From NCBI GenBank assembly GCA_019915015.1, contig JAHBBC010000010.1, positions 1,426,001-1,490,000 of the forward strand: 64,000 nt of DNA. The letters run 5' to 3'. Positions 36,007 through 58,028 of the stretch are shown here, in pieces; the first letter of the stretch is position 1; each line of letters opens with the position of its first letter. The position numbers and the translations under genes are program-made. Below the pieces are notes generated by a model. That model did no database searches. It saw nothing but the letters and a program-made list of their open reading frames with translations, and was not told the DNA's origin. Source of the DNA: Auriscalpium vulgare (taxonomy: Eukaryota; Basidiomycota; Agaricomycetes; Russulales; Auriscalpiaceae).

Positions 36007-39000
36007 ATGGCCGCATCGCTTTCGGCTGTTGCAAAATCGTCTTCGCACCCATCTGGTTAGTACAGTATGCTATGCTCTTTGGATTTCGCTCATCTCGGCA
36101 TCTCCAGGCATCACAAGCCTACGTGATGCCAGCAAGGCATCCAAGACCGATATGGCGTTCAGCACCGTCGGCACAGCGCTAGATATCCTCAAGGAGGTGG
36201 GCGAAATGACCGCAAATGTCCCGTACATCAAGGCGCTTTCGGGCCTTGTACTCCAGATCATAAAGATTAAAGATGTACGTCCTCGCCAGCTTCCCATGGG
36301 AAAAAGCTGATGCCAGTACACAGGACGTCGATACGATGAAGGAGAAGTGGGCGGAGAATATGCGACTCGTGTTACAGATCCAAAAGATCATCGATGATTT
36401 CCACGATGCGTGCGTGGCCGACGGGAAGTCTGATGGTGATCTCCCCGATTATTTGGTGAGGGCGCTGCGTGGGCTCGAAAGGTCAGTCAGGGCTCTACTG
36501 TTTTACCGAGTCGGCTCGTCTGACGGATGTGTACATTCAGCACGTTGCAGGATGTCCTCAGTGTGCTCGCGCAGTGCACAGGCAAACGCAAGCGCGATTT
36601 CATCAGGAAGATCGCAAACCGCAGTCAATTGACGAAGGCAGTCGATGCCTGCGGCCGCGATGTCCAGAATGCCCTTACCATTCTCAATGTCAGTCCGGAT
36701 GGTGGCTTTATGACGTGTGCTAACTATATTGCCTGATTCATAGATGCGACTGGTCCTGTACCAGGGCAGCACGATGAACGACGTCGCTCTCGCGATCAAG
36801 GCTCAGGTTGGTTGACTAGAGCAAATATGTCAGTTACTTCTTACTCATCCGACGGCATAGATGGCCTCCCGGTCTTCGCCGGCATCTAAACCGTGCGTCC
36901 GACGGATTCTATTCACGGAGGCTTATTCAACTGACCTCTTGGACAGCGCACCGCCGGTCCTACGAAGGCCATACCCGTTCATCGGACGTGATGTCGAGGT
37001 CAACGACATTGTCAATCGCATTCTCCAAAAGACACCCGCCAGGATTGCCATCCTAGGCCCTGGGGGCATGGGCAAGACATCCGTTGCTCTTGCAGCTCTG
37101 AACATGGTTCAGGACCAGGAGCTCTACCGCGATGCATGCTACTTTGTGTCTTGCGAGGCCATCTTGTCTGCCAACGACTTGATCACCAAGCTTGCTCAGA
37201 CCTTTGACATTGCCATTGAGCCTGGTGATAACTCTATTGAGAGAAAAGTCATGGCATATCTGAACTCTGTGACATGCATGCTCTGCCTGGATAACTTTGA
37301 AACTCCTTGGGAGGCCCAAACCATTGCAGTGGAAGAGCTACTAGCTCAAATTTCTTCTTTGCAGAATGTGGGCTTGGTTATAACCGTACGAGGGGAAGAG
37401 TATCCTGCTTCTACCTCATGGGATAAATCTCCCCTAGATATTATCAAGCCACTTGATTTTGAATCTGCAACACAGACGTTTGAAAATGTTTCACAGAAGT
37501 CTGATGAATTCTCAGCCAAGCTGATTCAAGCTGTTGATTGTATCCCCTTGGCTGTGAATCTCCTTGCACATCTTGCTCAAACTGAGTCAACAGCTTCATT
37601 GTGGCAAAGATGGGAAAAAAGTCACACTACCATGGTTAAGAGAAATGTCAGCAAATCTAGATTGACAAGCCTTGATCATTCTATCATGTTGTCTTTGGAA
37701 AGTGCCAGAATGGCTGCATGCCCACTTGCAACAGAATTTCTGGGCATTCTTAGTATGCTCCCAGATGGCCTACATCTCAGCAAGGTTTCTGATTTACAGC
37801 TTGCATATGATGAAGTTATGAATATTGAGGAAGTCATTGCAGTTCTCAAGCAAAACTCTCTTGTCTATATCTCTCTCAATGACAGGCTATCCATACTGTC
37901 ACCCATCCGATTGGTAGTCCTACAGGTTTTGAACCCCTCTCAGGAAATGAAGATAGTTCTGCAGGAATATTACATGCAGCAGATTGAGGAGCAAGATAGC
38001 AATGGGACATTTGGAACAGCAAGAGCTGTATTTATGCCCGAGATAGGCAATGTACAAGCTGTGCTGGAAAATTCCCTACATGACTATGAACAGAAAGAGA
38101 GAGTTGTAGGCACCATAGCAAAGTTTTCAGAAATATGTTACTGTTTGGGGCTTAGTGATATAGGCTTAATATCCAAGGGAACTTCAATTGCAGTTGATAT
38201 CAATCAAAAACTCTATGGGAACTGTTTATATCAGTGGGGCAAATTGTATTTGCAATCTGCTCAATATGAAGAAGCAGCTGAGAAGCTACATGATGCTCTT
38301 TGTGCCCATGTGAATGTGCATGATTTATCAAGACAAGCCCAAGATCACTATTATATATCTATTATACATGGCCACCAGGCCAAGACAGACCAACAGGGTA
38401 GATCTGGAGAAGAAACAGAGCTTGATATTTCTCTTGATTTATATACCCAGGCAGACAACAAAATGGGAAGGGCTCACTGTTTGAATGCATTAGGATGCCT
38501 ATATAGAAAATACGGAGAACTGGAGAAAGCAGTATGTTCAATGAATGAAGCACTTCAATTGCACCAAGAGGTGAAAGATGTTCTTGGTCAGGCAAATGAT
38601 CTGCAAGGCTTGGGTGAAATTTACCTTCACAAGTCAGATTATGTAGAAGCAGAGAAGAGATTTCTACAAGCTTTGAAGCTTCACAAAGAAGAAGGTTCAC
38701 TGTCAGGTCAAGCTGATGATATGAGGCAGTTAGGGAAAGTGTATTATATGCATTTGTCAGATTATGTGAAAGCAGAAGAGTACACAAGACAAGCCTTGAC
38801 TTTGAATATTGAAGCCAATGATGTTCTTGGACAAGGACATAATTTCCTACAAATTGGTCATATATACTCTTTGTCACATCAGCACACAGAAGCAGAAAAG
38901 GCATTTGTAGAAGCAGAAAAATTATATGATCAGGTATCAGATGTTCCAGGCCAAGCCAGTGTTGCCTATAGACAGGCAGAAACTATGCATAGCAGGCATG

Positions 39001-39086
39001 AGTGGAGGAAGACTCAAATTATTTTAGACAAAGCATTGGTATTGTATGTGAGAGACAACAATATGCAAGGGCAAGCAAATTGTTAG
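36007..39086 (+). CDS. NLR-type receptor: HeLo-like N-terminus, NB-ARC, TPR repeats
   Basis: A fungal NOD-like receptor candidate. Exons 36007-36055, 36108-36274, 36324-36481, 36541-36688, 36744-36806 and 36861-39086 give 936 aa. Residues 1-200 form a helical bundle like the MLKL/HeLo-type N-terminus common in Agaricomycete NLRs. The NB-ARC follows with P-loop GPGGMGKTS, Walker B MLCLDNFETPW, ITVRGEEYP and a GLPLA-like CIPLAVNLLA. After a linker come TPR units of about 40 residues (ALGCLYRKYGELEKAV, LGEIYLHKSDYVEAEKRFLQ, LGKVYYMHLSDYVKAEEYTR). Family members are thought to trigger incompatibility or defence cell death. From about 37.1 kb the last exon is strikingly AT-rich with different codon use, unlike the five short GC-rich exons before it. 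The stop lies 45 bp before a dispersed repeat. Confidence 0.85.
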
Positions 39087-44727: not shown

Positions 44728-45278
44728 TGATACGCCTGCCCAGCCGTCTAGCGGAGAAACACCCGAATTTTGGCATTTTCGGCATCTTCCGAAATCACGT
44801 GACCTCGGCCTGCCGGCCTCGGTCCGCACCATCAGGTTTCACTACCACCCCGCAGCGTCTATCGAAAGCGCCCCAAACACACTCGAAATAGCCTACACGC
44901 CCCACCAAGCGCCCCGAGCCACACGCCACAATCCTACGGCCCCGCACAACAAGTCACCCAGCGGCTATCTGACTCGGAGCCACACGCCACAATCCTTCCC
45001 CGCCGTGATGCGCCGCTGTCAATCATACTTCCCTTCTGCGTTCCCCGATTTCTCGATATTCCCCACATCTTGATCCACGATACGGTCCCGCCTACGTTAA
45101 TCCACAGCCGTCCGAGATAGGCAGGAGCGCTACACAACGAGCCAAGACCGCCCGTCGTACGTCCCTCCCTTCAATTTACACTCGAAATACATCGGATACC
45201 CCGCTCGACTTTACGATACACCACCAGCGCCTTACGATATAAGCGCTAGCGCGCTAATCGCACTTCGCCCCCTAGCGG
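44728..45278 (+). repeat. element 2 5' LTR, left part
   Basis: Starts TGATACGCCTG, as does the LTR of element 1 read in its own direction. It contains an imperfect version of the CACGTG palindrome near 44788-44808. The last four bases, GCGG, are repeated after element 1. Confidence 0.8.
45275..45278. repeat. target-site duplication of element 1, left
   Basis: GCGG at 45275-45278 recurs at 58025-58028, directly outside the two ends of element 1. Confidence 0.65.
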
Positions 45279-46709
45279 TGATGGGCACCAGACGGTAGTA
45301 GGGCGGATATGGGTAGTTTCCTATCCCTAGAGCGCTGTCAGTGGTACCGCGTTGTTGTGCGAGCGAGTCGTCACGTTCCCAAAGGTTCGCGAAGTGACTC
45401 CACCGATACGTGGATCGTGGTCGTAACGAGGATTCGGATCGGAATGAGGGTTCGGCGTGTGCGCCGGACCAGGAGACGAGAAGGAGTGAGCGTACGAGTC
45501 ACCGAAGTGACGAACAAACGAAGTCGCGACGAGCGAGCTCCGAAGTTGGACGCGGAGGAGCGCGGAATGACGATGGAGGGAGGGAGAGAGAGATCGACGT
45601 AACACGAAGTTCGGCTTTATACGTTGATCGGTGCGATGGGTAGTTGGGTGACTTCGGACAACTTCGGATTGAGGACGAAGTTATGTGTAATGGGGAACGC
45701 GTTCGTCGTGGGCCTGAACTTGAGGAGGCCTCGAAGGTGATATCAAAGTGGATGAAGGTCTGTCGATGGCGGTGTTCGAGAGGCGAGGTTCGGTCGTCGA
45801 TGTTCGAGAGGCGAGGTTCGGGAGACGAGGTTCGGAAGGCGAGGTTCGGAAAGCGAGGTTCGGAAAGCGAGGTTGGGGTTCGTGGTGCGAAAGGCGAAGG
45901 TCGAAAGCGAAGTCGAAGGCGAGCGTATTGCGGCGTGCGGCGTAGTCGAAAGTGAGGTTACGGGCGATAAGGAGGACGAGGGGTACAACGACAGTAAGAG
46001 CTGTCGATGCGGGCGGTTTGCAACGTCTCTTTCGAGATGCTGACTATGGGGGGGAAAGTAACTTGTTATTCGGTGTGCTATCGAGTCGTATTTAAGCTAC
46101 AACGAGTGCGAGACCGTATCGTACGGAAACGAACATAGGTAGGTGCGTACAGAGACGAAACACGAGCGAAGTGGATAAAGATCATGTGTCGCAAGTCGAG
46201 GTGGGTCGGAACGAGCATATGTAGCGAGAGGGAGCTCTTATGGGGAACGAGAACGATGGATACCAGACAAACGATCAGCGCTGTCGCTACGATGTGATAT
46301 ACAGAAGGATGAAGTACGAACGATATTGTGGAGACGCGCCTCAGCGGTACAAGGCGCGCCAAACGTATACCCGCGAGCCGAAGTCGCAGCGAGTGGCGGA
46401 CGATCTTCCGAAGTGGCTGGGAAGGTAGCCATGGCTTCGGGCTCGGTTCGCCTCGGCTCGGAAAGGTCGGGACGATAGAAGGGATCAATCGGGAACGCTA
46501 TAAGTGAGGGGGAGAATCGGACAGGGAAGTACCGGGTGACAGCCGGTTATCTCGGAGATACGCTCACGGGGCGTTTCACTACACTGATCTTGGTCCGGCA
46601 GCGACTTTGTGGCGTGTCTGCTGCTGATGGGCCGAAAGGCCTCGACCGAACCACGTGCGGGCGCCTCGGGGTGACTGGAAACGAGGCCGAAGCGCTGGGA
46701 AGTTCGGAG

Positions 46710-46729
46710 CCGAAGTCACGTGACTTCGG
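46710..46729. promoter_or_regulatory. 20-bp perfect palindrome with CACGTG core (3' LTR)
   Basis: CCGAAGTCACGTGACTTCGG, about 130 nt inside the U3 end of the LTR. The centre GTCACGTGAC fits bHLH sites of the Cbf1/USF class. The copy in the 5' LTR is at 57873-57892. Confidence 0.6.
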
Positions 46730-46778
46730 AACTTTCCGAAGTGGCTGTGCCGAAACGGCGGAAACGACGGTCCGGAGA

Positions 46779-46798
46779 CCAAAGTCACGTGACTTTGG
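46779..46798. promoter_or_regulatory. second 20-bp CACGTG palindrome (3' LTR)
   Basis: CCAAAGTCACGTGACTTTGG, 50 bp from the first. The 5' LTR copy is at 57942-57961. The conserved ten-base core with varied flanks suggests a duplicated protein-binding site. Confidence 0.6.
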
Positions 46799-46861
46799 TT
46801 CGAAATGAAAAACCGAAAAGTCGCGGTGGAATCCCCGCTCGACGGGGAATCAGGCGTATCA

Positions 46862-46897
46862 CCTCCTCCATACTTTGATAGTGACCGTCCACGGTCA
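46862..46897 (-). promoter_or_regulatory. polypurine tract and preceding stem-loop (3' PPT)
   Basis: Read on the minus strand, a TGACCGTGGACGGTCA inverted repeat is followed by CAAAGTATGGAGGAGG directly abutting the 3' LTR. This is where plus-strand DNA synthesis would be primed. A near copy lies in pol at 51290-51325. Confidence 0.7.
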
Positions 46898-47438
46898 CCG
46901 AGATGAGGGGAGATGTGATCCGAAGGCAAATGTGGCAAGTGATGGGAAACTCGGGAAAAGTCGGAACGTGGAAGCGAAGTCGGAAGCGATGTCGGGGGCG
47001 AGAAACGAAGCGGCGGGCATGTCGGGATGATGATGCGATCATGATTTGCGCCGGGGGCCGAGGCAGAATTGATGAGCCGTGGTCGTGGGAGCGATCGGAA
47101 TGTGGAGGGTAGAGGCGAAGTCGAATTGGGTCGATGACGTCGTGATGATGTCAGATATGATATCATGGTCTAGGCGCTATTGGAAATATACCCAAATCGG
47201 TGTACCTGGTTGCCGAGCGCGTTCGGCTGTGCGTCGCTAGCGTGGGATCAGGGTCGAGGGTCGGAAGATTTTTACGAAGTCGGCGGATGCCTCTTTGTTC
47301 GTCTTGGGGGCGCCTATTTGCCGAACAATGGGAGGGGAAAAGGGATAAAAGGAGGCGAACTTTTCCGTGGTTCGCCTTCAACTTTCCTCCCTTCCCCTTT
47401 ACCTCTCACCTCGGGCGCTCCCTTCCATAACCACTACC
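46898..47438 (+). promoter_or_regulatory. promoter and leader region of the opposite-strand gene
   Basis: It contains GGGATAAAAGGAGG near 47340-47355, about 90 nt before the start codon, then a pyrimidine-rich tract (47385-47430) leading to the start context CTACCATGTC. The rest is noncoding for the gypsy element. Confidence 0.5.
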
Positions 47439-49404
47439 ATGTCGGCATCCACGTCCTCCAGGTCCACCAAGGCGAAGGTCTCGCTCCGCGAGATTCACCT
47501 CGGCATCAACGGCCTGCTTGACTCCTTCAACCCGGAGGCGACCGAAGACGCGAAGCGCGCCTGGTGCAAGTCCATCTTGCTCGGGCTGGTAAGTCCTCGT
47601 CGTCTTCGGTCGAGAACCTTACGCTGACTTCGTCTCCCTAGAAAATGGGTCGGCCGCACCCGCAGTTCCAAGTCGAGCTCGGAGGGTGCCTAGCGCGCCT
47701 TCAGTACTATGCGGACCACCACGGCACGCCGGCGTGGGTCGACGACTCCGACGGCCTCCTGCAGCCGCTGCCTCCAGTAAGTCGTCTCCCGTTTGTTGAC
47801 TTCGCATGATCGCTAACTCGGTTCGCTTCTAGAAACGCAGCGCCTTTGAGCTCATGCTCGAAGGGCAGCTCGCCGGCGACGACGTCGAGCTCGACTTGGG
47901 CGAAGTCGACTACGGACCCGCGGGGGCGGCTATTGCCACGCTGCCTGTCGCGAAGTCCGAGGGTGAGTCCGAGGTGCCGGGCGAGGAGCTCGAAGACGGC
48001 GAAGTCGCGGACGACGAGCCCGCAGAGGACGAGCTCGCCGACGAGGAGAAGGAGGAGGATTTCGAGGCGAAGAAGACGAAGAAGAAGGCGACCAAGCACC
48101 TCGTCCTCGAGTTGGACGACCCGACTTGGGCGAGGGACGCGAAGTGGGGAGCGCAGTACCGGGAGGCCAACGCGCTCGTGAAGACGATCCAGACGGGGAA
48201 GTACGACTACGAGTCGTACGGTTCGGTAAGTCGTTCGGCTTTGTGTCTTGGGTTCGGCGCTGACTTCGGCTCGTTTTCTAGGTATGCGACTATTGTCGCG
48301 GGTACATCGCGACGCACGGGCACGCCTGCGCGCCGCAGATCGTCAAGATCCAAACGAAGGTGAAGGTGTCGTGCGCCCGCTGTATGATAGCGGTGCACGG
48401 GTGTTACTGGACGAACGGTCCAGTTGTTGAGTCAAGTAAGTTCGGTTTTGTCCTGTACGCATTCGAGTCGGAGCTGATCCCTTCGTAACAGAGAAAAAGG
48501 GCAAGACGGAAGATTCGGGCCTCAAGCGCGTGCCCGAGGCCTCGCCGGACCATGACGACGATGTCGTGCAGCCGGCGGCGAAGAAGGTGAAGGCGACGCC
48601 CAAGGCGACGCCGAGGAAGGAGACGCGCGCCCAGGCGCAAAGTAAGTGACTTCGATTGACTTCGTTCGAGGAGGAGAGCTGACCCGAACCCACAGAGAAA
48701 AAGGCAGTGGTGTCGTCCGAAGTCGACCTGACTTCGGACGTCGAGATGGCAGGGCCGTCGCAGACGCAAGCGACGATGCCAGGTAAGAGCACGCCGCTCT
48801 TCCTGCCTAGTCCGAAGTCTGACTCGGAGCAAGACGTAGGATTCGGGACCGCGGGGGAGGACATGTGGGAGGAGATGGGAAAGGACCTCGAGGGTAAGTC
48901 GTCGCCTGATCGTGATCGCATTCCGAAGCTAACACAATCCTAGAAACCTCGGTTCGGCCTCCAAGCGCGCCGGTCGCGGGCCCGAGCAAGCCGAAGAACA
49001 AGGGCAAGGGCAAGGCCAGGGCGAAGTCGTCCCGAACGCGCCGCGTCATCCCCGTGCCCATCTACGGGAACGAGACGAGGGTGCGCGGGCTGCCTCAGTC
49101 CGACCGCTTCACCGACCACACCCTCCCCGAGCCGCCGACGCTGGACGACCTGGAGGCCATGGCGAGAGCGATCGACGAGGTGCCGACGGACATCGGGCTC
49201 ACCGAAGCTGAGCGCCGCATCGTCCGGATGATCCGGATCATGAAGGCCGATGCCATGACGCTCGCCTACCTCGTCCACAACCGCATCATCGACCTTAACT
49301 GGGCCGAGACGCGGTACCTCAACCGGGCGCTGTGGGAGCGGTACAACGCGGGCGAACCGGTGACGCTGTACGGCGGAAATGAGGACGACGAGTCGGAGGA
49401 TTGA
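47439..49404 (+). CDS. opposite-strand seven-exon gene inside the gypsy element, unknown function
   Basis: Exons 47439-47588, 47642-47776, 47833-48225, 48282-48435, 48492-48641, 48696-48893 and 48944-49404 sum to 546 aa. All phases close. Nearly every donor is GTAAGT and acceptors are C/TAG. Residues 1-95 form a mixed helical domain (IHLGINGLLDSFNPEATEDA). Residues 96-226 are very acidic. 227-277 hold a Cys/His cluster (CDYCRGYIATHGHAC, then CARCMIAVHGCYW) that could bind zinc. 278-393 are Lys/Ser-rich and look nuclear-targeted. 394-546 form a conserved-looking C-terminal domain (LTEAERRIVRMIRIMKADAM, then NLNW-like DLNWAETRYLNRALWERY). No family is recognised. It is convergent with pol, with 418 bp between the stops. 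Confidence 0.75.
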
Positions 49405-49822
49405 GCGAAGTCGAGGGAAGTCGGCGAAGTCGAGGGGAAAGGGGCGAAGTCGAAAAGAAAAGGGGAAAGGTGGAGGAAAATGTAAAATAGAAAGATTGTG
49501 CTTGTTCTTGAGGCGTGAGCCTTGAATAGGATTTGTTTCTTGCGTTCGAACTGTGTGAGATCAACACGAAGTGAACGTACGAAAGCCGAAGCGACTTCGG
49601 GACTCTGAAGCGCACACAGCTAAGTCAGGAAAGGTGAAAATTCGATTCTTTTGTTTAAGTCTCAGTACTCCTTCATAGACTTAGGACTTTGATCTTGAGT
49701 AGCCCTGCGCTACAGCGGTAAACGCGAGCGACTTAGTATAGTACAAAAGAAAATGAGATAAGAGACACGATGGGGAGGAGAGGGAAGTGGTGTGGATTCT
49801 GGAATGCGCTCCGTCGCGTTCT
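49405..49822. other. spacer between opposite-strand gene and pol
   Basis: Opens with a GCGAAGTCGAGGG-type repeat, then A/G-rich and plain sequence. Likely 3' UTR for both genes. No coding potential is recognised. Confidence 0.4.
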
Positions 49823-52800
49823 CTACTCTTGTTCGGCTTCTGCTTCATCATCAGGGGGCTCTACGTCGCGTTGCTCAACGTCGGGTGGATCTGCTTCGTC
49901 TTCGTTGCCTTGCGTCTCGCTTTGCTCGAGCTCGCGAAGTCGCTGAGTATCTATGTCGATGTCGCGAATGTCAATCTCGATCGGTTCTCGACGAGCGAAG
50001 TAAGGAATGACTCGGAACGCGGCAATGGGGCGATCTAGAACGGAAGCGTCGAGGTCGGCGAGGATGTATGCGCCGCCTCGGTTGCGCGAAATGACGACGA
50101 GGGGACCGAGGTAACGTGGACGCATCTTGCGGTTGAGCGACTTCTCTATTGCGGTGTTGCGCATGAGTACGAGTGTTCCTCGTTTGAAGTCGAAGTCGCG
50201 AATCGTGTGCGAATGTTCAGCTTCAAAGCGTCGAGCGTTCTCGATGCGAGTCTCGTAGACTTGGGAGCGAAGTGCCGAGATGTCGTCGTAACGCTTCTGG
50301 AGAGCGATGGCGCGGCGAGCGATGAGATCTGTAGTCGAGAGTATGGAATCTGGAGGGGGCTGGAGATACGTGGCTTCAGCAATGTCCAGGGGAATGAGCG
50401 GGTGACAACCCGTGACCGCGAAGTAAGGCGAACAGCCCATGCGTTTCCGAACCGTGAGGCGCTCCGACCAGAAGACAGAGTGAGCGTGGCGCGCCCATTG
50501 TGACTGGTCTCCGTCTGCTGCTTTGAAGAGTGCCTGCCGAACATCGTAATGTGAGCGTTCGACTATACCGTTTGCTCGGGAGTTGTAGCCGCTGATTCGA
50601 ATATGTCGGATGTGGTACAGCGTTTCGAGGTGCTCGAGGGCTTTGATGAACGGTTTGCCGTTGTCGGTGACGATCTCGCTAAGCGAACCCCAACGGGAGA
50701 TGATTTCCTCGTAGAAGAACTTCGCGAGTGCGACAGAGTCCTCTTTCTTGAGTAGACGGAATTCGGGATACGAAGTGATGGAACATCGACCTTGGACGAT
50801 GTAGCGGTACCCGTTCGAGGGCGGCATGTGCATGGTGTCGACGTAGATCTTCGCGAACAAAGAAGCGGGTGGCGCGACGGTTGGGGGTAGGAGGATTTGG
50901 AGTCGTTGACGCTGTTGGCAGATTAGACATGTCCGAACATACCACAGGACGTCGGCTTCGTAGGACGGCCACCAGAAGCGTTGGCCGATGAGCGAGCGTG
51001 TTGCGAACACTCCTCGATGGCCGACTTTGTCATGGCAGTCGATGAGGATGTCGACGCGGCGTTTCTTGTGCGGGACGAGCTTGTGTCCGCCATCTTTGTT
51101 ACGACGCCAGAGGCGATCTCTAGTAACGAAGAACTTGGTGGCGTAGCGAACGAATGTGGTGAACTCGGAGTCGGTCATTTTCTCGGGACGTACTGGGTCT
51201 TCTAGCCAATCTCGGACGTAGATGATGCGTTTGTCGGCTTTGTGTGCGGCTTCGGTGCGCGGGATCTCGCCATATCGCAGCACCGGGGGCTCCTCCTCCA
51301 TACTTTGATTCTGACCGTCCTCGGTCAGTGCGAACACCTCGTGGACGGACGCGGAAGGGGTAGAAGGAGTCCAAGTCGGTTGCTCGTTCATGCTGGCGGT
51401 GTGGGCGATGTTCAGGAAGCCGTACAACTCGTCGATCCAATCGTCGAAGTCGTCGTCTTCAACTTCGGGAGGATCTCCAGGCTGCCGAACGCGTCGGGAG
51501 AGACCGTCGGGGCCGTGAAAAATTCCTGGGACGTGCCGAAGTAGAAATTTGAAGGCGAGGATGGAGATAATCCAGCGATTGGTGCTCGCAGTGGGGACTA
51601 GATCAGGGTGCTTCAGCATACCGCCAATGGAAAGAGCGTCAACCTCGACGATGAGGTTCCGAAGTCCGATGAGGTAGATCTTCAGCGTCTTCAATGCGCG
51701 GTAGAGACCATAGATTTCGAGCTTCGGCTGCGAGAAGCGACGTTCGCGATCGTTTAGCGATATTGATCCGAACCGACTGTAGTATCGCTTCTTTTTATTC
51801 TCTTCGTCTTCTTGGGCGAGGATGTAGCCAACGGCGATGTAGGAGGTGTCGACGGCGAGGATGACGGCGGCGGGAGATTCGTAGTCGATTGCTCGAAGTG
51901 CTTCGGAATGAACGAGTGCGTCCTTGAGGTACTCTTGTGCGATAAGTTGCTCGGTACCATACTCGAAGTCAACTCCTTTGCGCGTGAGCTTCGTGAGGGG
52001 CCAAGCGTGCTTCGCGAAGTCCTTGATGAAGATCCGACAAACGCCAACGGTTCCGAGGAACGCGCGAACATCTGAAAGATCTTTACAAGGCCCCCAATTG
52101 GTGATCGCGGAGATGGTGGTAGGGTCTGCACGTCTGCCTTCTGGAGTGCAGAGATGGCGAAGAACCGTGAACTCGCGCGATATGAGGATCGACTTCGTAC
52201 CGGAGAAGGTGCCCTCCGAATAGCGCATGCGTTGGAGGATTCGGTTCGTGTTGAGGAGATGTTCCCAGACGAAGCGACGGATGTCTGGGTTCTCTGGTAT
52301 CATCTCATACGAACCGTCCGCGAGCTTGTAGTCCGACTTCGGGCCTTTGATGGGGACATCGTCGATGAAGGGGATGGTATATGTCGGAATCTCTTCGCGA
52401 AGTATGTGGGTGACGTCGTCGTGGAAAATCGGGACCGAGTTCGTCCAACCCATCGGCAGGGTGACGAGGCGATGCGCGCCGTAGGGGGTTTGGAAGGTGG
52501 TGAAGTCGCGGGATCGTTCGTCAATGACTCGCTCGTCGTAGCCGACGTACAGGTCGAGGATACCACCGCAAGCACGACCTCCGAACTGCTCGGCGAGGTG
52601 CTCTTGGATAGGCGGGACTCCGGAATGTGCGACCGTGACGGCGTTGAGCGGTTCGAGCGAGTGGACGATGCGAAGCTTACCGTCCTTCTTCGCGACGCAA
52701 AACCACTTCGATCGATAGGAGGAGTTGGAAGGTTCGTAGACGCCTGCATCGATCTTCTTCTTGATCATTCGGCAGACTTCGTCGCGGATGCCTGGGGGTA

Positions 52801-52990
52801 TGGGGATGTTACGATCGACCCAAGGGACATGCGCGACCACTGGGATTTGAATAGGCGGAAAGTACTCCTCTTTGAAGCTTCCTCGCTCGTTCTCGGCCCA
52901 GGCGAACGCTTCGTTTTGCTCGGAGATGGTGTTGTGGAGGAGGTCGCGCTCGGTCGGTGTCAAGAAATCGTAGTTCGGAAGGGCGTCCAT
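49823..52990 (-). CDS. pol: element 1 pol: reverse transcriptase, RNase H, integrase
   Basis: 1055 aa from ATG 52990, enzymes of a Ty3/gypsy (Metaviridae-type) element. The RT has KWFCVAKKDGKLRIVHSL, LPMGWTNSVPIFHDDV and the active site as PFIDDV (Phe for the usual Tyr). The RNase H region follows (VILAVDTSYIAVGYILAQ). The integrase has an HHCC finger (HDKVGHRGVF, then CLICQQRQ) near residue 650. Its catalytic triad is D (YVDTMHMPPSNGY, about 717), D (VTDNGKPFI, about 778) and E (NGIVERSHYD, about 811). A GPY/F-like module (RPRYLGPLVVISRNRGGAY) comes near the end. No chromodomain is seen. The frame continues upstream to 53017, where a TGA interrupts it. Confidence 0.95.
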   Translation of the reverse strand: MDALPNYDFLTPTERDLLHNTISEQNEAFAWAENERGSFKEEYFPPIQIPVVAHVPWVDRNIPIPPGIRDEVCRMIKKKIDAGVYEPSNSSYRSKWFCVAKKDGKLRIVHSLEPLNAVTVAHSGVPPIQEHLAEQFGGRACGGILDLYVGYDERVIDERSRDFTTFQTPYGAHRLVTLPMGWTNSVPIFHDDVTHILREEIPTYTIPFIDDVPIKGPKSDYKLADGSYEMIPENPDIRRFVWEHLLNTNRILQRMRYSEGTFSGTKSILISREFTVLRHLCTPEGRRADPTTISAITNWGPCKDLSDVRAFLGTVGVCRIFIKDFAKHAWPLTKLTRKGVDFEYGTEQLIAQEYLKDALVHSEALRAIDYESPAAVILAVDTSYIAVGYILAQEDEENKKKRYYSRFGSISLNDRERRFSQPKLEIYGLYRALKTLKIYLIGLRNLIVEVDALSIGGMLKHPDLVPTASTNRWIISILAFKFLLRHVPGIFHGPDGLSRRVRQPGDPPEVEDDDFDDWIDELYGFLNIAHTASMNEQPTWTPSTPSASVHEVFALTEDGQNQSMEEEPPVLRYGEIPRTEAAHKADKRIIYVRDWLEDPVRPEKMTDSEFTTFVRYATKFFVTRDRLWRRNKDGGHKLVPHKKRRVDILIDCHDKVGHRGVFATRSLIGQRFWWPSYEADVLWYVRTCLICQQRQRLQILLPPTVAPPASLFAKIYVDTMHMPPSNGYRYIVQGRCSITSYPEFRLLKKEDSVALAKFFYEEIISRWGSLSEIVTDNGKPFIKALEHLETLYHIRHIRISGYNSRANGIVERSHYDVRQALFKAADGDQSQWARHAHSVFWSERLTVRKRMGCSPYFAVTGCHPLIPLDIAEATYLQPPPDSILSTTDLIARRAIALQKRYDDISALRSQVYETRIENARRFEAEHSHTIRDFDFKRGTLVLMRNTAIEKSLNRKMRPRYLGPLVVISRNRGGAYILADLDASVLDRPIAAFRVIPYFARREPIEIDIRDIDIDTQRLRELEQSETQGNEDEADPPDVEQRDVEPPDDEAEAEQE
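51290..51325 (-). promoter_or_regulatory. candidate central polypurine tract within pol
   Basis: Thirty-three of 36 bases equal the 3' polypurine segment at 46862-46897, including the TGACCG..CGGTCA inverted repeat and AAAGTATGGAGGAGG. Element 2 has a related sequence at the same place in pol (63937-63973). Confidence 0.6.
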
Positions 52991-53014
52991 GGCGTCGTGT
53001 CGCTCTTGGGTATA

Positions 53015-53669: not shown

Positions 53670-55979
53670 TCAAAGTCGGGCTTGAGCAATTTGCTCCTCG
53701 CGAAACCGATGGTGTCCCCGAGGATATGTGGGGATGACGAGGCGGTCGCCTGTGTTCGGGTTGCGGATGGTGACCGTCTGGTCCTCGTTCTGGAAGTTCT
53801 GAACGATCGACTCGGTGAGGACGTCGAAGGGGCGACCGAGGAGAATGTCGTAGGCAACGTTCCGCACGATATGAACCTGGAGGTACAATGTCATGCTTCC
53901 GAACTTGATAGGAACGTTACGTGCCAGCCCGAGCGACTCGGAAACCTGCTTGTTCGCCGATTGGAGGCGAATTTTGATCTCGGGGTCGTAGTGAAGCTCG
54001 AGGAAGTGACATACCTCCTCGCTCATCGCTATTACCTGAGATCCAGGGTCGAGAAGGCATTCGATGGCGACTCGGCTGGCGACAATCCCGTCGATGGACC
54101 GAAGCGAGTGGGAGTCGTTTGCGACGGTCAACGCGTCGGGATCGAACATGCTGTCGTGCGTGTGAGAGTTCAGGTAGACCTCGATCGGGTCGCTCATGAC
54201 ACCTTTGTTCGATGCCGGCCAAACGGAGTCGACGGTCGACCTGCGTGGATCGGGGGCGTAGTGGGCGAGGAGTACCGTTTCCGAAGCTCGGATTGCCGCT
54301 GCTGGCGAAGTGAGCTCCTCGTCGGGTACCTCCTCGATCGTGACTTTGTGGCTTGGCTCTACTTCCTGGACGTTCGCTGCTCGACGAGGCGTAATCGCGT
54401 CGCGGAACTTCTGGCGAACCTCGGGGGCGAGCGAGAGCAGTTCTTCCGGCGTGAGCGAAAGTCGAACCTCCTTCATGGCGCGTTCGAAGACGGCGTCGGC
54501 CAATTCGGTGCGGTGAACCGGCGGCGCGTTGCGAAATTGTGGTTCGCGAACGGCTGGTTTGCTCGGATCGGCTGGAACCGTCTTCGGTTTGATGGGGGCG
54601 GAGGTCGCGTCGCGGACGTTGCGGAATGGGTGAACTGGAATTTGCTCAACTTCGCTTGCCTCGGGTTCGGGTGCCTGTGGCGCTTGCTTCGGAGGCTCTG
54701 CTTGCGCAATCTTCGGAGGCGGTGGGCCAACTTTGGCTTTAGCCGGGCGAGTAATCTCGACCCCATCGAAGACTTGCGCATATGCAGCATGTTGCGACCG
54801 AAGTGCAGCCAGTTCGGCTTCAAGTCCTGCGATGCGATCTACCTTCGTGAGCGAAAACGTCTGAAGCGGAGTGGGGAGCAATTCCATCATGAGGGTTGAA
54901 GCTACCACGGGTTTGACCGAAGGGTTGCGACGATACCACTCCTGGACTCGGTCGCGCAAGAAGTCGCCGGTGATGGCCCGAGGAACGAAGCTGCCGTTCG
55001 CTAGCGTGACCTTGCCTTCGCCGTTCCGAACGATAAGGCCTGCGCGAACGTCTTCTTCGACGAGCTCGCAAGACGATATACGATGTTCGGAGCTTCCACA
55101 GTACAAACAACGTCCGGCAAGGCGCAGCATTGCTGCTGCGCGTGCGTCCGCTGAGGAAGTACTTGCGGTGGAAGACGCGACTGCGGCTGGTGCTGCTGCT
55201 GCTTCGACTGCGTTCGCTGCCGCTTTGATCGGGCCCGATAGTGTTGCGAGCGAACCACCTTGCATCAAGCTTCGGACGAGTGTCGCAAGGAGATCTTCTG
55301 CTTTGATGGTTGGGGCAGGTGAAGGCGTGGCGGCGACGACAACTGGCGCTGGGGGAACGACTGGGGTGGCTACGTGCGCGCCGGTCCGAAACGCGTCGGC
55401 GTCGGACTGGAGGACGTACTGCCCGGCGAGATAGGCGTCCGAGACGTCGTAAGGGTCGCCTGCGATGACGTCGGGTTTCTTGATCTGGAGCCGAGAGTTA
55501 ACCTTCGGCCAGAGGGCGTTCGGGATACCTCGGGAGAACGCTCGGTTCTGCTCCATCGTCGACAGACGTCCTTTGAGCACTAGGAAGCCCGAAATGGTCA
55601 GATACTCTCGATGATACGTAGCGAAGTCGTCGAGAGTCAACGTAGACTTTGCTCGCGTCTGTTTGACGAGCTCGTCTAGGTCGGCCGTTGTATACGCTCG
55701 GTCGGCGTCGGCTCCTGGATAGAGCTTACCGACGGCTACCTTGAACTCGTCGTATGTGGCGTTGCCAGTGAATTCGATCATTGCGTCGAACAGGTCGGCG
55801 GTTGCTGTGGGGACGTAGTTCTTCGTCCAATCCTTCTTCGCGCGGTCAGTGACGACGCCCGCAGGTCCGAAGAACGCTTCAAGGTCAGGCCAAAACCTAC
55901 GGATCTCGCGGGGTTTGTCCGGCGTGAACACAGGCGCTGTTCGGGCGAGCCTAGATGGCATCGGGACGAGGGCGGCCAT
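53670..55979 (-). CDS. gag: element 1 gag with fused aspartic protease
   Basis: 769 aa from ATG 55979, chosen because the same Met (MAALVPMPSRLARTAPVF) starts the equivalent frame in element 2. The capsid-like region begins REIRRFWPDLEAFFGPAG. One zinc knuckle (CLYCGSSEHRISSC, CX2CX4HX4C) lies near residue 290. The protease has the active site as LLDPGSQV near residue 640 and the C-terminal YDILLGRPFDVL. The stop TGA at 53672-53670 is where the frame changes by +1 to the pol frame, as in element 2. Confidence 0.9.
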   Translation of the reverse strand: MAALVPMPSRLARTAPVFTPDKPREIRRFWPDLEAFFGPAGVVTDRAKKDWTKNYVPTATADLFDAMIEFTGNATYDEFKVAVGKLYPGADADRAYTTADLDELVKQTRAKSTLTLDDFATYHREYLTISGFLVLKGRLSTMEQNRAFSRGIPNALWPKVNSRLQIKKPDVIAGDPYDVSDAYLAGQYVLQSDADAFRTGAHVATPVVPPAPVVVAATPSPAPTIKAEDLLATLVRSLMQGGSLATLSGPIKAAANAVEAAAAPAAVASSTASTSSADARAAAMLRLAGRCLYCGSSEHRISSCELVEEDVRAGLIVRNGEGKVTLANGSFVPRAITGDFLRDRVQEWYRRNPSVKPVVASTLMMELLPTPLQTFSLTKVDRIAGLEAELAALRSQHAAYAQVFDGVEITRPAKAKVGPPPPKIAQAEPPKQAPQAPEPEASEVEQIPVHPFRNVRDATSAPIKPKTVPADPSKPAVREPQFRNAPPVHRTELADAVFERAMKEVRLSLTPEELLSLAPEVRQKFRDAITPRRAANVQEVEPSHKVTIEEVPDEELTSPAAAIRASETVLLAHYAPDPRRSTVDSVWPASNKGVMSDPIEVYLNSHTHDSMFDPDALTVANDSHSLRSIDGIVASRVAIECLLDPGSQVIAMSEEVCHFLELHYDPEIKIRLQSANKQVSESLGLARNVPIKFGSMTLYLQVHIVRNVAYDILLGRPFDVLTESIVQNFQNEDQTVTIRNPNTGDRLVIPTYPRGHHRFREEQIAQARL

Positions 55980-56437
55980 TGCTGGTGGTTGTGCGGAGTA
56001 TGCGGGTGGTGGGTGGATAGGGCGGAGCGAAGTGAGTTGCGAAGTCTGTGGGCGTTTCGGAAGCGAAGGCGAAGGCGAAGGCGGAGTGCACGGGGTCGGA
56101 GGTTGCGATGGGTGAAGAGGGGTGAGAGTCGATAACGGTGGCAGCGGCGAAAGAGATCGCAGAGGCGTAGAAAATCCTCCGGGAACGTGGAAATCGAAGT
56201 CGAAGTCAGGGTCGGCGTCGTGCTGAGTACCTGAAGGTTCGGGGAGAACGTCGTTGTTTTCCTCGTCTTCGGAAGCCTCGTCGGAATGCGGGCCGTCAGT
56301 GGCGGGGTAGACGACGTGGGACCGACGAACTTCGTCGGCGAGGGTGGCGGAGCGAAGTTGATAGCGAGAGACGAAAGGCGAAGTTGCTTCGGAAGGCTTT
56401 GGAGGAATGGTGACAGAAACCCTCGCGGTGGGCTCCA
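55980..56437 (-). other. open N-terminal extension of gag without an ATG
   Basis: The gag frame stays open for 153 codons upstream of ATG 55979, back to the primer binding site. It encodes an acidic then Pro-rich sequence (FHVPGGFSTPLRS, TPLHPSQPPTPCTPPSPSPS). Element 2 has a clearly similar protein sequence in the same place. No in-frame ATG exists back to stops inside the LTR. Confidence 0.6.
56420..56437 (-). promoter_or_regulatory. tRNA primer binding site, element 1
   Basis: TGGAGCCCACCGCGAGGG, four bases from the 5' LTR. It begins TGG, as expected for pairing with a tRNA CCA end, and is identical in element 2. The tRNA was not identified. Confidence 0.7.
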
Positions 56438-56441
56438 AAAG

Positions 56442-58024
56442 TGATGGGCACCAGACGGTAGTAGGGCGGATATGGGTAGTTTCCTATCCCTAGAGCGCTG
56501 TCAGTGGTACCGCGTTGTTGTGCGAGCGAGTCGTCACGTTCCCAAAGGTTCGCGAAGTGACTCCACCGATACGTGGATCGTGGTCGTAACGAGGATTCGG
56601 ATCGGAATGAGGGTTCGGCGTGTGCGCCGGACCAGGAGACGAGAAGGAGTGAGCGTACGAGTCACCGAAGTGACGAACAAACGAAGTCGCGACGAGCGAG
56701 CTCCGAAGTTGGACGCGGAGGAGCGCGGAATGACGATGGAGGGAGGGAGAGAGAGATCGACGTAACACGAAGTTCGGCTTTATACGTTGATCGGTGCGAT
56801 GGGTAGTTGGGTGACTTCGGACAACTTCGGATTGAGGACGAAGTTATGTGTAATGGGGAACGCGTTCGTCGTGGGCCTGAACTTGAGGAGGCCTCGAAGG
56901 TGATATCAAAGTGGATGAAGGTCTGTCGATGGCGGTGTTCGAGAGGCGAGGTTCGGTCGTCGATGTTCGAGAGGCGAGGTTCGGGAGACGAGGTTCGGAA
57001 GGCGAGGTTCGGAAAGCGAGGTTCGGAAAGCGAGGTTGGGGTTCGTGGTGCGAAAGGCGAAGGTCGAAAGCGAAGTCGAAGGCGAGCGTATTGCGGCGTG
57101 CGGCGTAGTCGAAAGTGAGGTTACGGGCGATAAGGAGGACGAGGGGTACAACGACAGTAAGAGCTGTCGATGCGGGCGGTTTGCAACGTCTCTTTCGAGA
57201 TGCTGACTATGGGGGGGAAAGTAACTTGTTATTCGGTGTGCTATCGAGTCGTATTTAAGCTACAACGAGTGCGAGACCGTATCGTACGGAAACGAACATA
57301 GGTAGGTGCGTACAGAGACGAAACACGAGCGAAGTGGATAAAGATCATGTGTCGCAAGTCGAGGTGGGTCGGAACGAGCATATGTAGCGAGAGGGAGCTC
57401 TTATGGGGAACGAGAACGATGGATACCAGACAAACGATCAGCGCTGTCGCTACGATGTGATATACAGAAGGATGAAGTACGAACGATATTGTGGAGACGC
57501 GCCTCAGCGGTACAAGGCGCGCCAAACGTATACCCGCGAGCCGAAGTCGCAGCGAGTGGCGGACGATCTTCCGAAGTGGCTGGGAAGGTAGCCATGGCTT
57601 CGGGCTCGGTTCGCCTCGGCTCGGAAAGGTCGGGACGATAGAAGGGATCAATCGGGAACGCTATAAGTGAGGGGGAGAATCGGACAGGGAAGTACCGGGT
57701 GACAGCCGGTTATCTCGGAGATACGCTCACGGGGCGTTTCACTACACTGATCTTGGTCCGGCAGCGACTTTGTGGCGTGTCTGCTGCTGATGGGCCGAAA
57801 GGCCTCGACCGAACCACGTGCGGGCGCCTCGGGGTGACTGGAAACGAGGCCGAAGCGCTGGGAAGTTCGGAGCCGAAGTCACGTGACTTCGGAACTTTCC
57901 GAAGTGGCTGTGCCGAAACGGCGGAAACGACGGTCCGGAGACCAAAGTCACGTGACTTTGGTTCGAAATGAAAAACCGAAAAGTCGCGGTGGAATCCCCG
58001 CTCGACGGGGAATCAGGCGTATCA
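56442..58024 (-). repeat. element 1 5' LTR
   Basis: Counterpart of 45279-46861, offset exactly 11163 bp. It carries the same palindromes (57873-57892, 57942-57961) and should drive transcription leftwards. Confidence 0.92.
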
Positions 58025-58028
58025 GCGG
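58025..58028. repeat. target-site duplication of element 1, right
   Basis: GCGG, matching 45275-45278. Confidence 0.65.

Follow-up and report, generated by a model that had tools for sequence, protein, structure and literature searches.

A gene of seven predicted exons lies inside a gypsy retrotransposon and is read against the direction of the element. It was located in a window of 64,000 nucleotides, meaning the whole stretch of DNA that was analyzed, and its relatives accompany pol in three gypsy families of the same genome. Based on its recurrence, its retained frame, the constraint on its amino acids, and its diverged homologues, all of which are sequence observations, we conclude that this is a long-standing accessory gene of a gypsy clade, maintained under selection and not a chance neighbor.

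Antisense gene and its carrier element

The initial annotation had proposed an antisense gene of seven exons and 546 amino acids between pol and the 3′ LTR, and this proposal was confirmed: the gene occupies positions 47439–49404 of the plus strand, and all of its exons are in frame up to the stop codon that follows the 546 amino acids. The layout also bears out its convergence with pol, as the gene is on the plus strand and pol on the minus strand. The features of the element, which reads on the minus strand, and of the gene are as follows.

45275–45278 (left) and 58025–58028 (right), target-site duplication GCGG, 4 bp
45279–46861, minus strand, 3′ LTR
46862–46869, minus strand, polypurine tract GGAGGAGG (sense), adjoining the 3′ LTR
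47345–47350, plus strand, TATA-like box (ATAAAA) preceding the start codon of the antisense gene by 94 nt
47439–47588, plus strand, exon 1 of the antisense gene
47642–47776, plus strand, exon 2
47833–48225, plus strand, exon 3, with an acidic stretch
48282–48435, plus strand, exon 4, with a six-cysteine motif
48492–48641, plus strand, exon 5, with a Lys/Arg-rich stretch that we take to be NLS-like
48696–48893, plus strand, exon 6, with a conserved SQTQATMPGKSTPLFL motif
48944–49404, plus strand, exon 7, with a KGKGKA stretch and a conserved C-terminal part
49646–49737, minus strand, conserved non-coding element between the antisense gene and pol
49823–53014, minus strand, pol ORF with RNase H and integrase domains
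53670–56483, minus strand, gag-protease ORF with an aspartyl protease domain
56442–58024, minus strand, 5′ LTR

The element has the hallmarks of Ty3/gypsy elements, namely, two LTRs, a target duplication, and a polypurine tract, and its LTRs are 100% identical over the aligned 1584-base repeat. Its domains follow the order protease, RNase H, and integrase. No RT model reached an E value of 1, and a FIDD motif visible in the pol ORF is presumably the RT motif. Pol is open for 1063 codons in the window, versus 1355 codons in 8 of 12 family-1 rows; thus, the frame differs near the start of pol despite the identical LTRs. Additionally, the window contains an ORF for a 741-aa NB-ARC/TPR protein upstream of the element (36861–39086) and a second gypsy element, of family 2, at about 61.7–64.0 kb (L053). 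The antisense gene of this second element lies past the window end and is split, with about 4.7 kb, including LTR-like sequence, separating its first exons from the remainder.

The six introns of the window gene are 50–56 nt long with GT-AG ends, the donor is GTAAGT in all six, and each contains a CTRAY branch-like site. The TATA-like box pointed out in the initial annotation recurs at a similar distance in other families: in the other three element gene copies examined, such boxes lie 72–76 nt upstream. The box is present in all four element genes examined and absent from the solitary host copy (L051, described below).

The window protein matches no Pfam family at an E value of 1. Pfam and PDB searches with five relatives returned nothing significant, and their weak Pfam matches included neither TRP28 nor SMC; a TRP28/SMC protein such as those of Retand and PvRetro13 was likewise rejected for the window protein, which has no such Pfam match. 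The description of the protein as belonging to no known family needs revision, as the protein does have relatives: it is a member of an unnamed family present in three gypsy families, in Auriscalpium vulgare, and at a solitary locus. AlphaFold2, run on the predicted A. vulgare protein P0001 with P0002 and P0003, gave a pLDDT of 36, and the predicted fold is useless. The cysteine motif of exon 4 is spaced C-x2-C-x10-C-x14-C-x2-C-x6-C-x-W. Of the Cys/His cluster claimed earlier, six cysteines and one tryptophan are invariant across the five aligned relatives, whereas no histidine is. Zn2Cys6 clusters are spaced C-x2-C-x6-C-x5-12-C-x2-C-x6-8-C. The spacings observed here are wider (C-x10-C and C-x14-C) and no Pfam match was obtained, which led us to reject a fungal Zn2Cys6 regulator, although the six-cysteine motif may still work like such a cluster. 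The motif looks similar to a zinc cluster and by this look suggests nucleic acid binding, to which Pfam, PDB, and AlphaFold2 lend no support. Finally, the DNA of the SQTQATMPGKSTPLFL motif in exon 6 is a 57-bp stretch common to 16 other places at 82–84% identity.

Recurrence, constraint, and divergence among gypsy families

In a search across all 96 contigs of the genome (51.6 Mb), 40 of 222 candidate pol places were scored and sorted by identity and neighboring gene into family 1 (n = 16), family 2 (n = 9, including the second element of the window), and family 3 (n = 15). A gene match lies within 6 kb of pol at 16/16 places in family 1, 8/9 in family 2, and 14/15 in family 3, that is, at no fewer than 38 of the 40 places pooled. 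In family 1, the distance from gene to pol is 575–598 bp in 15 of the 16 copies and 3.2 kb in the remaining one. The expectation that the gene sits at the same place in many copies thus holds; it is neither absent from the other family copies nor an unrelated host gene near a chance insertion, as gene and pol travel together at all 16 family-1 places. A chance neighbor is ruled out by this joint recurrence. At one exceptional pol place, C2:1661853, the nearest gene match among the matches listed is about 48 kb away, perhaps owing to a nested insertion; at the other, C4:430035, no gene is found among the matches listed (77 of 114 candidates). Moreover, three places on C14 (679548–680148, 684347–684947, and 708180–708780) align with the initial exons of the family-2 gene at 64–81% and are perhaps a further family or fragments. 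The gene is antisense to gag-pol, lies between pol and the 3′ LTR, and is conserved in most family copies, which are attributes of an antisense accessory ORF in this position (aORF-3R); TATA-like boxes are the observation that bears on a further attribute, transcription from an internal promoter.

Of the 20 family-1 loci, 16 were aligned, 14 of them at full length; the fragments L017–L020 were left out. The frame is retained through the last codon in 13 of the 14 full-length copies, and 12 of the 14 retain both the frame and every splice site (L011 has one altered acceptor). The introns are present in each of the 16 aligned copies reaching them. An apparent stop at 12 of 508 in L014 is an artefact, since its 5′ truncation shifts the translation out of frame. 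In the 13 copies with an intact frame, variation affects 145 of 1641 sites in exons and 72 of 325 in introns, a 2.5-fold higher frequency for the introns. Variable sites at codon positions 1, 2, and 3 number 38, 29, and 72.

The gene has a pN/pS of 0.283, with a median of 0.24 over 105 pairs from 15 copies, and 71 of 139 changes are replacements, versus 96.5 under random placement by mutation type (sd 5.1, minimum 77 in 5000 placements). The contig-end copy L012, which has exon indels and an early stop, was excluded from both analyses, and the truncated copies L014 and L016 were also excluded from the random placement. After correction for mutation type, N/S is approximately 0.46 of neutral, which represents moderate constraint. 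These values agree with the purifying selection that the initial annotation had named as a check, and a non-coding open frame is ruled out by frame retention and constraint. For comparison, the pol end (last 359 codons) has a pN/pS of 0.20 in 12 copies, excluding L004 with its insertion beside pol, and of 0.29 in 10 copies when L013 and L015 are also excluded.

L008 matches the window copy in all 577 bases before the gene and at 99.9% in the pol end, yet at 97.5% in the gene. The 116 informative sites are grouped in blocks common to different sets of copies, and some family-3 gene copies are 77–94% identical to the query near the C-terminus and 48–58% identical in the first half. We read these mosaic copies as probable products of recombination between element RNAs.

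Between families 1–3, the proteins are 26–28% identical, while pol is 74–77% identical over 713 shared columns of a trimmed part, the family-3 copy having a non-homologous start. Gene models were obtained for L054 of family 2 and for L052 and L055 of family 3, the last with one in-frame stop. The intron phases are 0,0,0,1,1,1 in all five modeled genes (the window gene, L054, L052, L055, and L051). Junctions 1 and 3 each share one alignment column in the five genes, and junctions 2, 4, 5, and 6 fall within 3, 14, 6, and 37 columns, respectively, in gapped parts of the alignment. Homology guided the manual choice of the models outside family 1 and hence part of the agreement in introns, but it had no part in the open frames or the GT-AG ends. 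Four of the six family-2 introns are without a CTRAY match.

A fourth family, with pol at C4:2144832–2147987, is 66–69% identical in pol to families 1–3, and in 997 of 1000 resamplings every pol identity within families 1–3 exceeded every identity to family 4. In the one family-4 copy read, the LTR begins a few hundred bases past pol, and no match beyond chance to any searched protein was found. Since this family-4 copy is without the gene, the gene either entered on the stem of families 1–3 or was lost in family 4.

The stretch of approximately 90 bases at 49646–49737 is also kept in families 1–3 (40 of 40 scored places; 54 candidates), and no counterpart was seen next to pol in the single family-4 copy. 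On the element sense strand, three pairs of a 14-pair structure differ in both partners when three lineages are compared; among 500 shuffles, 88 match this count of changed pairs and none matches the covariation score. Single-sequence folding energies of this stretch are unremarkable, and an Rfam search gave one sub-threshold match, radC, which was taken as chance. Small RNA helices on the element sense strand are a possible feature of this stretch.

Homologues in Auriscalpium vulgare and at a solitary locus

P0001 is 58% identical to the window protein at 97% coverage; it aligns continuously across junctions 3 to 6 and departs near junctions 1 and 2. This continuity, like the recurrence of frame, splice sites, and intron phases in diverged relatives, speaks against a gene structure that arose by chance. 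P0001 and P0002 are 84% alike, which suggests that the element-borne form is multi-copy in A. vulgare.

In the present genome, a solitary homologue (L051) lies at C1:2322.2–2324.0 kb. One of the genes flanking it encodes a KH domain (E = 7.8e-12) and the other a CID domain (E = 4.7e-5, which slightly exceeds the cut-off), and the 7 kb around L051 contain no DNA similar to the window. A relative with shared gene structure is thus found outside elements, as is characteristic of a captured host gene. In our model of L051, the donor of intron 4 is weak, and the A. vulgare orthologue suggests that this boundary lies 12 nt further on, in the same phase. This orthologue, P0003, is 89% identical over the core and 81% over the whole protein, the latter value being lowered because the exon 7 frame of L051 is disrupted. 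Given this disruption relative to the orthologue, L051 may be decaying or misassembled. No host orthologue other than P0003 was found in a search that detects relatives sharing five-residue words. P0003 is 32–38% identical to family 1, P0001, and P0002 and 25–29% identical to families 2 and 3. In the tree, the host gene and families 1, 2, and 3 form a near-star with one of four inner branches open, and the host gene is not placed. Downstream of the solitary gene (L051 3534–4158), perfect 26-base inverted repeats surround approximately 570 bases in a MITE-like arrangement.

Function, origin, and intron retention

We consider it somewhat better than an even chance that, in this Agaricomycete, this is a clade-borne, intron-bearing antisense accessory gene with its own promoter that encodes a nuclear regulator of the element. 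A nuclear regulator is our best bet for the gene product, a role suggested by the features of the predicted protein. The gene would have entered the stem of families 1–3 after their split from family 4; transcription would start from the internal TATA-like box, against gag-pol, and the plus-strand mRNA would be spliced. Retroelement cargo is expected to lose introns. We propose that these introns survive because they lie in antisense in the genomic RNA used for reverse transcription, where they are not splice signals, an argument that fits the recurrence, the constraint, and the intron retention. Judging by its six-cysteine motif and its acidic and Lys-rich stretches, the protein is most likely nuclear and nucleic acid-binding and may act on the expression or integration of its own element. 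Its rapid divergence between families would then reflect matching to family-specific partners or host defence.

The working product could instead be the antisense RNA, which would pair with the 3′ part of the genomic RNA, limiting copy number, or feed small RNAs. The convergence of the gene with pol is in line with this role, and Vicient and Casacuberta, in the accessible part of their article, discuss it for antisense genes (PMC7264820). However, amino acid changes fall below the neutral expectation, 13 of 14 full-length copies are without a stop, and relatives with 26–28% identity retain both the frame and the intron phases. Because an RNA role needs no conservation of frame, phase, or amino acids, these observations count against an RNA-only function, which we regard as unlikely; both products may act. 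An annotation artefact, or a chance insertion beside an unrelated host gene, is hardly credible with gene and pol together at 16/16 family-1 places and the gene positioned between LTR and pol.

Other readings concern the solitary locus. If L051/P0003 descends from the donor, the gene may be captured host cargo that brings the element no specific benefit, or tolerance by the host at most. The lone homologue stands between ordinary genes with equal intron phases, its A. vulgare orthologue is 89% identical over the core, and the six short introns resemble those of a host gene; yet retention in three families through 72–74% protein change, together with constraint inside family 1, is unexpected of idle cargo, and the search by shared five-residue words found no further host orthologue, so that this reading seems improbable. 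The opposite direction, in which the solitary gene was domesticated from an element of the clade and may now restrain it, is rather doubtful as well. It agrees with the presence of the solitary gene only in the present genome and A. vulgare and with the slightly closer similarity of P0003 to family 1 proteins (32–38%) than to families 2 and 3 (25–29%), but the tree leaves the place of the host gene open, no stretch similar to the window element occurs in the 7 kb read, and the disrupted exon 7 frame of L051 may mean decay or misassembly. A broader version of capture is tentatively possible: a gypsy ancestor would have acquired an entire host gene with its six introns in antisense and would have passed these introns on through RNA since then. 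The gene would have become a fast-evolving regulator of the element, and the host counterpart, either left behind or re-domesticated, might be an opposing control factor. If this is true, a retroelement regulator and its cellular counterpart have been caught together.

Elements already described as having an antisense gene in the interval from pol to the 3′ LTR are Grande, RIRE2, Retand, PvRetro13, and Boty, according to the accessible parts of the sources (PMC7264820; PMC11963269; PMC8365987). Similar to the gene described here, maize Grande gene23 and the RIRE2 gene of rice, both in plant gypsy elements, are antisense, lie between pol and the 3′ LTR, and occur in most copies; their ORFs have their own promoter, and the gene23 protein is nuclear, as far as the available text relates (PMC7264820). 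They differ in being plant elements for which that text mentions no introns (PMC7264820), and the antisense TRP28 genes of Retand are called ORFs, with introns unmentioned in the text available (PMC11963269), and their protein is a different one, as the window protein has no Pfam match. In Botrytis cinerea, Boty is likewise a fungal gypsy element with an additional antisense gene, brtn (PMC7264820; PMC8365987), but its host is an ascomycete, and brtn was compared by title and mention alone, which limits the claim of novelty. HTLV-1 HBZ is also an antisense gene of a retroelement and, in the excerpted account, a spliced nuclear regulator; in contrast, its promoter is in the 3′ LTR and its protein is of the bZIP type (PMC10186651), whereas the gene described here has six introns and an internal promoter-like box. 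Our searches of mostly non-subscription literature, without the Boty paper, turned up no LTR retrotransposon described as carrying an antisense gene with many introns. Antisense accessory genes are already known, and what appears to be new here is the six retained introns and the host-resident relative.

Collectively, six introns kept through repeated retrotransposition in three gypsy families make the orientation argument testable with ordinary data. Moreover, many near-identical copies, three diverged families, a gene-less sister, and a host homologue make the function of an antisense accessory gene approachable.
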